This document shows positions 32,585 through 48,914 of a DNA stretch of 64,000 nucleotides, in pieces. Under the pieces are notes generated by a model that was given only the letters and a program-made list of their open reading frames with translations, had not been told where the DNA came from and did not search any database. Source of the stretch: Epidermidibacterium keratini (GTDB lineage: Bacteria; Actinomycetota; Actinomycetes; Mycobacteriales; Antricoccaceae); contig NZ_CP047156.1 in NCBI RefSeq assembly GCF_009834025.1, positions 1,612,001 to 1,676,000 on the forward strand. The letters are read 5' to 3'. Both the position numbers and the translations under genes were made by a program. Position 1 is the stretch's first letter, and every line of letters starts with the position of its first letter.

Positions 32585-33826
32585 GTGTTAGGGCCGTACC
32601 GCGACGTACTGCGCACCCCGCGCACGGTGCCGATGGAACTGTTTGGGTTCATCGGCCGCTTACCGCTCTCTATGGTCGGGCTCGGCTCGGTCTTCCTCGT
32701 CGTCGGCAACTACCCCGGAAACTCCTACGGGCTCGGCGGGACGGTGGCCGCATTCGGTGCGATTGCCACCGCGATCATGGGTCCGATCCTGGGCCGACTG
32801 GCTGACCGCTACGGCCAACGCAAAGTGCTCATCCCCGTCGTCATCACGTTTGGCGCCGGCGCCGCCTTGTTCATCGTGGCCGTCCAAAACCACGCACCCG
32901 CCTGGGTTCTCTTCGCCGCGGCCGCGGTCGCCGGTGGATCAATCCCACCGGTGGGCTCGATGCTGCGCGCCCGCTGGTCCTACCTGTTGGAAGGATCGCA
33001 GCGGCTGCCGACCGCCCTGGCGATGGAATCGGTGCTCGACGAGCTCGTCTTCATCATCGGTCCGGTGCTGGTGACGTTCTTGTCGACCACCGGTCATGCC
33101 ACGTTGGGCATGGCGGTCGCCGCGACGCTCGCCGTCATCGGCAGCCTGCTCTTCTCGACCCAGACCGCTACCGAGCCGCCACCGGGGCGGGATGAGATCC
33201 CGCGCGGCACTCGTTCCGCGATCCGCATCCCCGGCCTGATGATCCTGTGCATCGTGGGGCTGTCGATGGGCGCCGTACTCGGCACCTTCGAGCTGGTCCT
33301 CGTCGCCTTCGCCAAGGAACAGGGCGAGTCGTCGATGGCCGGCGTACTCATCGCCGCCCTCGCCATCGGGTCGATGGCAGCGGGCCTGATCTGGGGCACG
33401 ATCGACTGGCTGGCACCGCTGAACCGCCGGCTGCTGCTGATCCTGTCGGCGCTGACTCTCGCGACGCTGCCGACCCTGGTGATTCCGGGCATCTGGATGA
33501 TGGCGATCTTCGTGGCGATCTGCGGCATGGCAGTCTCGCCGTCGCTGATCACGACCTTCACGATCTGCGAGCTCATCGTGCCGCGCGAGCAGACCAACGA
33601 AGGGTTCACCTGGATCGGTACGACGATCGCGTTGGGCGTGGCCCTCGGTACGTCGACCTCCGGGATTGTGGTCGACAAGTTTAGCCCGAACCTCGCCTTC
33701 GGTGTCGCGACCCTGGCCGCCGGACTCGCGGCGCTCGCGGTCTGGGCCGGGCAGCGGCTGCTGCAGCCGCGCGGCCGGCAGGTCGCCACCGACACCTCCT
33801 ACGGCTACCCCGAACTCGACGACTAA
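32585..33826 (+). CDS. MFS transporter of unknown substrate
   Basis: A 413-residue protein with 12 hydrophobic helices and a motif A-like loop GRLADRYGQRKVL near residue 70. It starts with GTG at 32585 without a strong ribosome binding site, so it may be leaderless or weakly translated. The stop codon TAA is directly followed by a 21-bp repeat array. Substrate cannot be inferred. Confidence 0.8.
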   Translation: MLGPYRDVLRTPRTVPMELFGFIGRLPLSMVGLGSVFLVVGNYPGNSYGLGGTVAAFGAIATAIMGPILGRLADRYGQRKVLIPVVITFGAGAALFIVAVQNHAPAWVLFAAAAVAGGSIPPVGSMLRARWSYLLEGSQRLPTALAMESVLDELVFIIGPVLVTFLSTTGHATLGMAVAATLAVIGSLLFSTQTATEPPPGRDEIPRGTRSAIRIPGLMILCIVGLSMGAVLGTFELVLVAFAKEQGESSMAGVLIAALAIGSMAAGLIWGTIDWLAPLNRRLLLILSALTLATLPTLVIPGIWMMAIFVAICGMAVSPSLITTFTICELIVPREQTNEGFTWIGTTIALGVALGTSTSGIVVDKFSPNLAFGVATLAAGLAALAVWAGQRLLQPRGRQVATDTSYGYPELDD

Positions 33827-33832
33827 TCCGCC

Positions 33833-33916
33833 GATCCGAACGTTAATCCCCGCGATCCGAACGTTAATCCCCGCGATCCGAGAGATATTGCGCGCGATCC
33901 GAGAGAAACCGCGGCG
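33833..33916 (+). repeat. 21-bp repeat array A (4 units)
   Basis: Four units start at 33833, 33854, 33875 and 33896, exactly 21 bases apart, each opening GATCCGA. Units 1-2 continue ACGTTAAT, unit 3 GAGATAT and unit 4 GAGAAAC, followed by GC-rich tails (CCCCGC, GCGCGC). The array begins 6 bases after the stop codon of the MFS gene, in the same orientation. Arrays B, C and D are the same family. Confidence 0.9.
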
Positions 33917-36746: not shown

Positions 36747-36805
36747 GCAACAACGCTCGGATCTGCGGAATTAACGTTCGGATCTGCGTGATTAACGTTC
36801 GGATC
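36743..36805 (-). repeat. 21-bp repeat array D (3 units)
   Basis: On the minus strand, units start at 36805, 36784 and 36763, exactly 21 bases apart: GATCCGAACGTTAAT twice, then a decayed GATCCGAGCGTTGTT that runs into the asparaginase stop codon. It begins 20 bases downstream of the stop of the minus-strand CoA-transferase gene, in its sense orientation. Confidence 0.88.
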
Positions 36806-36825
36806 TGCGGTGAAGGTGAGACGGG

Positions 36826-38136
36826 TTAGAGGAGGGTGCGGGCGGCGCGTTCGAGATCCTCGCGATGGTCGGGGTGCGCGATCGCGATCATCGCCCGCGC
36901 CCGGTCGGCGATCGTCGCGCCGCGTAGGTCCGCGACGCCGTACTCGGTGACGAAGAGGTCGGCGCTGCCGCGCGGCGTGGTGACGATGCCATCGGCGAGC
37001 CGCGGCACGATCCGCGAGACGCTCCCGCGGGCGGCGGTCGACGGCAGCGCGATGACCGACCGGCCGGCCTCGGAGCCGATCGCCGCATCGACGAAGTCGA
37101 GCTGACCGCCGATCCCACCGGCGTACACCCCGCCCATAGTTTCGGCATTGACCTGGCCGGTCAGGTCGATCTCGATGGCACTGTTGATCGCCCAGAGGTC
37201 CGGCAAGGCGCTGAGCGGGCGTATGCCGTGGGTGTGGTCGATCGAGCGCAGCACGACCTCGGGATTGTCGTCGATCCAGCGCACCAGCCGCTCGGTGCCG
37301 AAGGCCAGCCCGGTGACGCTCACGCCGGTATCGATGGGCTTGCGCGCGTTGGTCACCGCACCGGACTCGACGAGCTCGATCACGGCGTCGCCGACCATGC
37401 CGCTGTGCAGACCGAGGTCGCGCTTGCCGGTCGCGGCCGCCGCAAATGCCTCGGGAATCGCGCCGATGCCCATCTGCAGGGTCGCACCGTCGGGCACCAG
37501 CTCGGCGATCTGCTCGGCGATCCGTTGCGCGTCGTCGCTGACCCGTGCGGCGGGCCACGGCGGTAGCGGCGCGTCCGAGCGCACGACGACATCGAGATCG
37601 CTCAGCGCGACCTGCGTGTCTCCGCGGCTGAACGGCACGTTGGGGTTGACCTCACCGATCACCACGCGCGCCGAGCGGATCGCGTCTTGCAGCATGTCGC
37701 CGACAAGCCCGGTCGAGCAGATGCCGTCGCGAGGATCGCTGAGCTGGACGAGCACGACGTCAAAGCGCAGCCGGCCCGAGCGGATCAGCCGCGTGACCGC
37801 GCCGAGGCGGGTCGGCATCACCTCGACGGCTCCGACCTTCGTCAGCCGCGAGGTCTGCCCGAGCCCGCCCAGCCCGAAGTAGCGGAAGTGATCGGCGTAC
37901 TCGGCCTTCATCGAGTCGCCGAGCGTGACGGCGAGGAAGATTCCGAGCCGCTCGCCGTCACCGACGATCGCGGCGCGCTGCTCGACCAGCGCGCTGGTCA
38001 GCGAGTGGGGTTCGGCCGGTCCCTGACCCCACACGAGCCGATCGCCGGGGCGGACGTACGCCGTCAAGTCGAGCTGGTCTGCGCTGAGCTCGACCGGTTC
38101 GCTGCGTCGAGCATCGGAGGTGGCGCGCAGCGACAT
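36826..38136 (-). CDS. Acetyl-CoA hydrolase/CoA-transferase (4-hydroxybutyrate CoA-transferase-like)
   Basis: A 436-residue class I CoA-transferase. It shows the glutamate region AINSAIEIDLTGQVNAE, in which the catalytic Glu forms the CoA thioester, then GGVYAGGIGGQLDFVDAA and VTEYGVADLRG at the C-terminus. It moves CoA between acetyl-CoA and a short-chain acid, or hydrolyses it. No pathway partners are adjacent; a role in acetate, succinate or hydroxybutyrate handling would fit the nearby carbon-storage genes but is not shown. Confidence 0.88.
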   Translation of the reverse strand: MSLRATSDARRSEPVELSADQLDLTAYVRPGDRLVWGQGPAEPHSLTSALVEQRAAIVGDGERLGIFLAVTLGDSMKAEYADHFRYFGLGGLGQTSRLTKVGAVEVMPTRLGAVTRLIRSGRLRFDVVLVQLSDPRDGICSTGLVGDMLQDAIRSARVVIGEVNPNVPFSRGDTQVALSDLDVVVRSDAPLPPWPAARVSDDAQRIAEQIAELVPDGATLQMGIGAIPEAFAAAATGKRDLGLHSGMVGDAVIELVESGAVTNARKPIDTGVSVTGLAFGTERLVRWIDDNPEVVLRSIDHTHGIRPLSALPDLWAINSAIEIDLTGQVNAETMGGVYAGGIGGQLDFVDAAIGSEAGRSVIALPSTAARGSVSRIVPRLADGIVTTPRGSADLFVTEYGVADLRGATIADRARAMIAIAHPDHREDLERAARTLL

Positions 38137-46626: not shown

Positions 46627-48267
46627 ATGACCAATGACCCACGCGCGGGCCAACCGGCCACCGCCGACGACCTCGTCGACGTCGACGAGCTGATCTCGGC
46701 GTACTACGAGCTCCGGCCAAACATCGCCGAGTCCACCCAGAAAGTCGCATTTGGCACGTCCGGGCACCGCGGCTCGTCGCTGAAGACGTCGTTCAACGAC
46801 GATCACATTGCCGCGACGTCGCAGGCGATCTGTGAGTACCGCGAACGCGAGGGCATCACCGGACCGTTGTTCCTCGGTCGCGACACGCACGCGCTGAGCG
46901 GGCCGGCCCAGGACACCGCACTTGAGGTGTTTGCCGCTAACGGAGTGCGCGTCGTACTCGACTCTCGCGACGGCTACACGCCCACACCCGCGCTCTCGCA
47001 CGCGATCTTGACCTACAACCGCTCGGGACGCTCCGATGCCGCCGACGGTGTCGTCGTGACGCCATCACACAACCCGCCGCAGGATGGCGGCTTCAAGTAC
47101 AACCCGCCCGACGGAGGCCCGGCGGGCTCGGACATCACGACGCGCATCCAGGACCGCGCCAACGAGATCCTCGCGACCGGACTCGGCGAGGTGCGCCGCC
47201 TCTCTCTCGATGATGCGAAGTCCGCAGCGACGACAGGACGCTTCGACTTCCTCGACTCGTACGTCGGTGATCTCGGCTCGATCATCGATATGGACGCGAT
47301 CAAGCAGGCCGGCGTACACATCGGCGCTGACCCGCTCGGCGGAGCATCGGTCGCCTACTGGGCCGAGATCGGCGCGCGCTACGGGCTGAACCTCGACGTC
47401 GTCAACGAGACGGTCGACCCGCAGTGGGGTTTCATGACGCTCGACTGGGACGGGCAGATCCGGATGGACTCGTCATCGCAGTTCGCGATGGCCTCGCTCG
47501 TGGGCAACAAGGACATCTACGACATCGCGACCGGCAACGACGCGGACGCCGACCGGCACGGCATTGTCACCCCCGACGGCGGGCTGATGAACCCGAACCA
47601 CTACCTCGCCGTCGCGATCGACTATCTCTACACGCATCGCCTGCACTGGTCACCGGACTGCGCCATCGGCAAGACGCTCGTGTCGTCGTCGATGATCGAC
47701 CGGGTCGCGGTGGGCCTGGGTCGCCGGCTTGTCGAGGTGCCGGTCGGCTTCAAGTGGTTTGTGCCCGGCCTGCTCGATGGGTCGATCGGCTTCGGCGGCG
47801 AAGAGTCGGCGGGAGCGTCGTTCCTGCGCACCGACGGCACGGTGTGGACGACCGACAAGGACGGCATCATCATGTGCCTGTTGGCCTCGGAAATCCTTGC
47901 TGTCACTGGAAAAACGCCGTCGCAGCGGTACGCCGAGCTGACGGAGCAGTACGGCGCTCCGGCGTACGCCCGCATCGATGCCCCGGCTGACCCGGCGGCG
48001 AAGAAGAAGCTCGGCCGACTCGCCCCCGACTCGATCACCGTCGAGTCGATTGCCGGCGACCCGATCACCGCGAAGCTCTCCGAGGCCCCCGGCAATGGCG
48101 CCCCGATCGGCGGGGTGAAGGTCACAACCGATAACGGCTGGTTTGCCGCTCGCCCGTCCGGCACCGAGGATGTCTACAAGATCTACGCCGAGTCGTTCTC
48201 CGGTCCCGACCACCTGGCACAGATCCAGTCCGAGGCCAAGCAGATCGTCGACACCGCCATCTCCTAA
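46627..48267 (+). CDS. pgm: Phosphoglucomutase (alpha-D-glucose phosphate-specific)
   Basis: A 546-residue enzyme interconverting glucose 1-phosphate and glucose 6-phosphate. It has the family start [14 protein letters not shown], the phosphoserine loop [17 protein letters not shown], the metal loop NDADADRHG, the sugar-binding GGEESAGAS and the phosphate-binding [16 protein letters not shown]. Length matches the bacterial Pgm family. The ATG at 46627 has GGCAGG just before it. Its TAA stop is followed within 4 bases by 21-bp repeat array B. Glycogen, trehalose and cell-wall sugars need this enzyme. Confidence 0.95.
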
Positions 48268-48271
48268 CCGC

Positions 48272-48376
48272 GATCCGAACGTTAATCCCGCCGATCCGAA
48301 CATTAATCCCGCCGATCCGAGAGATATTTCGCGCGATCCGAGAGAAATCGCGCGCGATCCGAGAGAAATTGCGTGA
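48272..48376 (+). repeat. 21-bp repeat array B (5 units)
   Basis: Five units at 48272, 48293, 48314, 48335 and 48356, exactly 21 bases apart, all opening GATCCGA. Units 1-2 continue ACGTTAAT or ACATTAAT, unit 3 GAGATAT, units 4-5 GAGAAAT, with GC-rich tails between. It starts 4 bases after the pgm stop codon in sense orientation. The variant order is the same as in arrays A and C. Confidence 0.93.
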
Positions 48377-48478: not shown

Positions 48479-48763
48479 ATGGTCGCCAGCAAGAACGACA
48501 CGACTGTCCCCGGCGTCGACTTCGAAGCCGCCGCCGGCCGCATCCGCGACCTCAACGAGCAGGTCATCGAGCAGGCCAAGAAGTCCGGCAACGTCAGCCT
48601 GGACGCCTACGAGAAGGCCCTGACCAGTGTCCTCGACTTCGAGAAGAAGGCCGCCGGCGCGTCGCAGCTTGACTTCGTCAAGGCGCTCACCGATGCGCAC
48701 GTCAACTTCGTGTCGCAGACCTCGGAGGCCTACCTCAAGGCCGCGCGCGAGGTTCTGAAGTAA
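48479..48763 (+). CDS. Phasin-like PHA granule protein
   Basis: A 94-residue, mostly helical amphipathic protein: FEAAAGRIRDLNEQVIEQAKKSGNVSLDAYEKALTSVLDFEKKAAGASQLDFVKALTDAHVNFVSQTSEAYLKAAREVLK. Length, helicity and position facing phaC fit a phasin that coats polyhydroxyalkanoate granules, but the sequence alone is not diagnostic. The ATG at 48479 begins MVASKND, with GGGAG upstream. A strong terminator follows 15 bases after the stop, and array B lies upstream. Confidence 0.65.
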   Translation: MVASKNDTTVPGVDFEAAAGRIRDLNEQVIEQAKKSGNVSLDAYEKALTSVLDFEKKAAGASQLDFVKALTDAHVNFVSQTSEAYLKAAREVLK

Positions 48764-48777
48764 CCACGCACCAGAAC

Positions 48778-48820
48778 ACACGAAGCGCCCGGGCCGATCG
48801 GCTCGGGCGCTTCGTGTTTT
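48778..48820 (+). terminator. Rho-independent terminator of the phasin-like gene
   Basis: An 18-bp stem with one G-U pair (48778-48795 with 48800-48817) around the loop GATC, followed by TTT. It ends phasin transcription and borders array C. Confidence 0.9.
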
Positions 48821-48914
48821 CTGTCGGATCGCGCGTTACTTCTCTCGGATCGGCGGAAATATCTCTCGGATCGCGGGAAATAACGTTCGGATCGGCGGGA
48901 TTAACGTTCGGATC
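48810..48914 (-). repeat. 21-bp repeat array C (5 units)
   Basis: On the minus strand, units start at 48914, 48893, 48872, 48851 and 48830, exactly 21 bases apart, each opening GATCCGA. Units 1-2 continue ACGTTAAT and ACGTTATT, unit 3 GAGATAT, unit 4 GAGAAGT, unit 5 CAGAAAA. The first G of unit 1 is the last base of the phaC stop codon TAG. The last unit overlaps the T-run of the phasin terminator. Confidence 0.92.

Follow-up and report, generated by a model that had tools for sequence, protein, structure and literature searches.

Ordered 21-bp repeat arrays with a C-rich leader at gene ends of Epidermidibacterium keratini: a candidate directional transcription-boundary element

How transcripts end in GC-rich actinobacteria is poorly understood, and intrinsic terminators built of a hairpin and a U-tract are scarce in them; a simple scan placed such terminators at 1-4% of the gene ends of Epidermidibacterium keratini, a skin bacterium on which little work exists. 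The repeat arrays of this genome may be placed among dispersed modular repeats and, as candidates, among factor-dependent terminators. An earlier note on this DNA knew of no described bacterial element of such form, and we likewise found none with this combination of features in the open-access full-text literature. Rho-dependent terminators (rut sites) are similar in having, for about 80-120 nt after stop codons, unstructured RNA with more C than G, which at the arrays just past stops would likewise be free of ribosomes, and a Rho gene is present here. However, rut sites are not alike in sequence, are not built of tandem units and show no order of variants, and six of the present arrays are translated. 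The tandem Sal-box terminators of rDNA, which act with TTF-I/Reb1, are directional tandem sites just past a gene and stop RNA polymerase. The arrays resemble them in this placement, but Sal-boxes are eukaryotic and found in rDNA only, and the binder is putative in our case. In the STRR/LTRR repeats of cyanobacteria one short tandem unit recurs at many intergenic sites of a genome, as it does here; we know of no variant order, leader or stop-codon register in those repeats. The modules of BOX elements are longer than the 21-bp units and are structured. The BOX elements of Streptococcus pneumoniae (boxA-boxB(n)-boxC; PMC3049150) are, like the arrays, dispersed, modular and polar, with a middle module that varies in copy number. 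In contrast, the arrays consist of 21-bp units with unstructured RNA, a C-rich leader and tight stop-codon placement. A BOX-type modular element was rejected, as the arrays are less structured than shuffles and the window has no Rfam match. Tandem direct repeats pervade Borgs too, within genes as well as between them, but their arrays reportedly arise independently of one another (PMC9879509), whereas here one unit family occupies 70 sites.

The genome is a single contig of 4,018,808 bp, and the window (the whole stretch of DNA that was analysed, 64,000 nucleotides) covers its positions 1,612,001-1,676,000. Genes were called with a codon-phase Markov model and are not those of the official annotation. 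Four arrays and the genes ahead of them lie in the window as follows.

46627..48267, plus strand: phosphoglucomutase/phosphomannomutase gene (pgm), with its TAA end ahead of array B
48268..48376, plus strand: array B, leader CCGC and five 21-bp units (I, I, II, III, III), directly after the pgm stop
32585..33826, plus strand: MFS transporter gene, with its end ahead of array A
33827..33912, plus strand: array A, four units (I, I, II, III) behind a TCCGCC leader, with the first core (33833) 6 bp past the TAA
48914..50725, minus strand: PhaC-like polyhydroxyalkanoate polymerase gene, with its 3' end in array C
48818..48914, minus strand: array C, five units (I, I, II, III, III), overlapping the stop of the PhaC-like gene by one base
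36826..38136, minus strand: acetyl-CoA hydrolase/transferase gene, with its end ahead of array D
36751..36825, minus strand: array D, three units behind a C-rich leader of 20 nt, with the first core at 36805

The five units reported earlier behind pgm are present at 48272-48376 on the plus strand. Their cores begin at 48272, 48293, 48314, 48335 and 48356, exactly 21 bp apart, with the first 4 bp beyond the TAA at 48265-48267. The spelling given for these units was right overall, except for one letter in unit 2, which is GATCCGAACATTAAT and not ACGTTAAT. Arrays A (33833, plus) and C (48914, minus) are located and ordered as claimed. Array D (36805, minus) is also where it was placed, but instead of the first type only it has two first-type units and a terminal GATCCGAGCGTTGTT. 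The first base of array C is the last base of the TAG stop of the PhaC-like gene, and its tail enters a terminator-like hairpin of the convergent gene. The first core of array D lies 20 bp past the stop of its minus-strand gene, and the array ends 4 bp from the stop of a convergent plus-strand gene. Between pgm and the PhaC-like gene a 94-aa protein is encoded (48479-48763), which is phasin-like by position and composition and has no Pfam match; a strong hairpin lies 3' of its gene, and array C runs into that hairpin.

Within the window there are 13 matches to the pattern GATCCGA-N14-GATC, where 0.09 would be expected. A search of the whole genome for GATCCGA at 21-bp spacing, the check proposed with the original observation, gave 99 forward and 93 reverse exact core pairs (192) and none for the reversed-pattern control. 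The catalogue was built from 1.72 Mb around or containing all core pairs and recovered every one of them, so it is complete. It holds 70 arrays of 2-6 units, mostly 3-5. Neighbouring units are 21 bp apart in 214 of about 225 cases, and a few arrays use 22 bp. In a profile scan of the 1.72 Mb solo units were nearly absent, the strong matches being mostly additional arrays in which the spacing was 22 bp or the core CATCCGA. Examples with such a spacing or with CATCCGA throughout stand at genome positions 482744 (plus), 483892 (minus) and 2072950 (plus); they point to homogenisation within arrays and show that an array can do without GATC and without a spacing of exactly 21 bp. Among the 218 units 110 are distinct, only three 3-unit words are common to different arrays, and similarity within arrays is only slightly above that between arrays. 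Recent block copying, one of the origins suggested earlier, is rejected on this scarcity of common multi-unit words. Several other identities were discarded: plasmid or origin iterons, as the 70 sites are dispersed beside unrelated genes; a CRISPR array, as the units are contiguous and have no spacers; Dam/SeqA-type GATC clusters, as CATCCGA and AATCCGA units exist, including the whole CATCCGA array at 2072950; and REP/BIME-type palindromic repeats, as the unit does not fold as a hairpin and the arrays fold no better than shuffles.

The units follow a grammar. Variation falls mainly at positions 8, 9, 11, 12, 14-16 and 18-20, while TCCGA is near-invariant with a C-rich 5' side and an A/T-rich 3' side. 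At 125 of the 132 internal positions between exact cores GATCCGA is itself exact, and the other seven are each one base off, so core conservation is not a detection artefact. From 5' to 3' the variants run from C-rich (GATCCGAACGTTAATCCCGCC) to purine-rich (GATCCGAGAGAAATTGCGC), with C-type units (AACGTTAAT, GCGTTAAT) upstream of A-type units (GAGATATT, GAGAAATT), and C drops as G climbs. The order shows 47 forward transitions against 3 reverse, and none of 5000 within-array shuffles was equally ordered. Arrays mostly end at GATCCGAGAGAAA, beyond which the sequence diverges, and the flank at -9 to -1 already resembles the unit tail. This last feature would fit templated repeat addition (telomerase-like or slippage-type, with C-rich 3' ends as primers), of which the arrays would be a by-product not under selection for any function; polarity and tandem identity would also follow from it. 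Such an origin gives no account of stop-codon placement, missing relics or fixed variant order, and we consider it very improbable.

Regular spacing also suits an element read in the DNA, and protein binding to one face of the helix, raised in the earlier note, is possible. A nucleoid or roadblock protein would occupy tandem sites two helical turns apart in a cooperative manner and so halt RNA polymerase or insulate neighbouring units, much as at the tandem Sal-box terminators of eukaryotic rDNA. The 214 spacings of 21 bp, the near-invariant TCCGA between its C-rich and A/T-rich sides, the near lack of single units and the identical 9-bp gap shared by tail-to-tail array pairs would all agree with it, and the divergence of the unit between genera could reflect a co-evolving binder. 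However, some arrays are spaced at 22 bp, and a leader with more C than G on one strand, a preference for TAA and a transcript with little structure are properties of RNA and not of duplex DNA. We regard this DNA-level reading as quite unlikely.

The polarity, stop-codon association and fixed variant order seen in the window hold across the genome. In 62 arrays with clear context, 26 lie in tandem gaps in the sense orientation, 17 are convergent, 10 are in divergent gaps and 9 are antisense in tandem gaps, so that 19 are not behind a same-strand gene. Placement just after stops in the sense orientation, as the earlier note expected, is borne out by 42 of the 43 arrays with a same-strand upstream gene, whose first core is within 24 bp of the stop, but not by the 9 antisense and 10 divergent arrays and the six in frame. 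In tandem gaps 33 of 35 arrays are nearer the stop side, with 26 sense against 9 antisense (p=0.006). The stop is TAA in 37 of the 43 sense-array genes, compared to 287 of 1520 other genes (19%), and in nine of the 43 it lies inside the first unit (GATCCGAACGTTAA). The host genes are functionally unrelated (scpA, relA/spoT, acyl-CoA ligase, efflux pump, P-type ATPase, phosphoglucomutase, PhaC, ligD, NAD-glutamate dehydrogenase, moeA), and no regulon is evident. Association with tRNA genes was rejected as well, as a single array is near a tRNA and lies upstream of it.

Three features had not been noticed before: the C-rich leader, the preference for TAA and the counterpart in a sister genus described below. 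On the sense strand, C rises from.34 to.61 and G falls from.35 to.11 over the roughly 45 nt before the array, and the composition is at background level after it. The leader extends into synonymous positions, with C.715 and G.198 at four-fold sites of the last 15 upstream codons against.483 and.339 in other genes (p=1e-14). Other gene ends have no C-rich, G-poor leader, whichever stop codon they use. Avoidance of G would also explain the preference for TAA, as it is the sole stop codon without G. Leader and array together have a minimum free energy of -0.21 kcal/nt, compared to -0.41 for random windows, from which they differ by about three standard deviations towards less structure, and to -0.42 for other gene ends. 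The array alone folds no better than its shuffles (z=+0.37). A structured RNA is thus rejected, also because no Rfam match was found in the window or over the arrays. An intrinsic terminator is rejected too, as none of 41 array ends has a GC-rich hairpin with U-tract up to 80 nt from the stop, and 5% have one up to 160 nt from it. We re-implemented the RUT criterion of RhoTermPredict, which considers C/G and the spacing of C in 78 nt (PMC6407284). A RUT-type 78-nt window with C/G>1.5 was found for 96% of arrays in sense, 0% in antisense and 29% of other operon-like ends. The arrays thus have the C-rich, G-poor window with regularly spaced C and the unstructured transcript expected of a Rho-dependent terminator. 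The E. keratini genome has a Rho gene, and mycobacterial Rho retains the ability to bind C-rich RNA (PMC4167861).

Our preferred explanation, put forward tentatively and with slightly less than even confidence, is a lineage-specific directional transcription-boundary element in which a C-rich leader and ordered 21-nt repeats would bring about Rho-type factor-dependent termination with a specific reader. The composite element would mark the end of a transcription unit; it consists of a C-rich, G-poor leader, which can be about 45 nt long and extends into the synonymous positions of codons, and of 2-6 units of 21 nt behind it. When the ribosome departs at the TAA stop, the unstructured C-rich transcript could load Rho, and the conserved repeats might be read by a sequence-specific factor, either an RNA binder that works with Rho/NusG or a protein on the DNA at which RNA polymerase stalls. 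Termination would then shield the downstream or convergent unit. Anatomy, polarity, placement, composition, low structure, core conservation and the diverged form in a sister genus are observed, and from them we infer Rho loading, the trans-acting reader and termination itself. The boundary reading is supported by the proximity to stops, sense excess, leader, RUT windows, low structure, TAA, conserved core, few solo units, unrelated hosts, Rho and the counterpart in G001, a sister genus. Rho-type termination is preferred to a DNA roadblock because composition differs between the strands and the RNA has little structure. A specific factor has to be assumed, because generic Rho sites need no conserved sequence, and the near-invariant repeats imply such a reader, which may act on DNA. 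Against the terminator reading stand the 10 divergent and 9 antisense tandem-gap arrays, the six translated in frame and the comparable orthologous ends without arrays. The divergent-gap arrays, for example one near rnpB, could stop divergent transcripts.

Six arrays, at genome positions 318547, 457409, 497545, 1168446, 1610037 and 2008419, are translated in frame 0 as DPxxxxA heptapeptide repeats (DPNVNPA/DPREIAR heptads), and they have leaders, often as Pro-rich codons. At least two lie in interdomain linkers (RNase H-histidine phosphatase and AAA-VWA chelatase-like), others in C-terminal tails (Lgt, GDSL lipase, ABC ATPase), and one in an ORF without Pfam match whose gene call is possibly unreliable. 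The RNase H-phosphatase linkers of relatives have neither array nor C-rich leader. Therefore the leader travels or co-evolves with the array even where translation would mask termination, since in-frame arrays carry the leader and the relatives' linker lacks both. The in-frame, antisense and divergent copies are the main evidence for a mobile origin, that is, a self-propagating repeat without host function, inserting with its leader and in the orientation of transcription where harm is small (just past stop codons, in C-terminal tails or in linkers), its variant order coming from an ancestral element. The leaders of the in-frame arrays, the bare linker in relatives, the lack of common positions at the few comparable orthologs and the lineage-specific unit of each genus suit such a repeat. 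However, there are hardly any relics or solo units although the arrays have diverged (110 distinct of 218), core, order and 21-bp spacing are retained while other positions vary, and insertion alone would not be expected to give upstream genes a leader gradient at their synonymous sites. Unsystematic inspection brought up neither a target duplication nor a transposase. For these reasons, namely few degraded copies, the retained core, order and spacing and the synonymous-site leader, function is favoured over pure mobility, which we judge unlikely.

Outside E. keratini the exact unit gave nothing beyond chance pairs in 120 genomes of the order and was absent from 393 genomes of the class and from the plasmids, phages and viral contigs searched; among the matches listed in a named-genome scan there were other repeats only. 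Tandem Repeats Finder detected nothing comparable in the relatives' stretches, the pgm ends of relatives are without arrays, and 300 kb of a further genus (g3) showed no enriched 21-bp word. A weak protein match led to another genus of the same family (G001), where about 504 kb contain nine arrays of a diverged 21-bp unit, GATCCGTCACGAAATTCCGGC (stretches L317, L318, L325, L333 and L305; reversed control 0). Five of the nine lie 4-19 bp behind long ORFs, with TAA in four, and one is in frame within a long ORF. Over the 15 nt ahead of these arrays C makes up 51% and G 21%, a bias that is missing behind them. The top 21-periodic words are of the ATCCGTC/CCGTCAC type in G001 and GATCCGA in E. keratini, and at three comparable orthologous gene ends the two have no arrays in common. 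So the architecture is conserved, and unit sequence and positions turn over between genera, as would be expected for a co-evolving signal and reader or for lineage-specific waves of a mobile repeat. It is possible, if doubtful, that these arrays represent a hitherto undescribed class of factor-dependent bacterial terminator or boundary element, in which a sequence-specific factor reads an ordered tandem array whose lineage-specific 'dialects' co-evolved with this reader across genera of one actinobacterial family.

The arrays at about 70 mostly unrelated gene ends, together with their sister-genus counterpart, provide a testable set of candidate signals for termination or boundaries and a means of finding the protein that would read them. 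If mobile, they would be an unusual repeat, biased in orientation, which takes a composition leader along as it spreads. The RNase P RNA gene (rnpB, genome 494674-495069, minus strand) has its 5' end 25 bp from a plus-strand array at 495094, which its promoter probably abuts or overlaps. Three tail-to-tail array pairs, at genome 260803/260887, 1548292/1548376 and 3165138/3165243, have an identical 9-bp gap (3/3) and form long inverted repeats, and the arrays at 532829 and 2925252 end in an inverted half-unit similar to these pairs.
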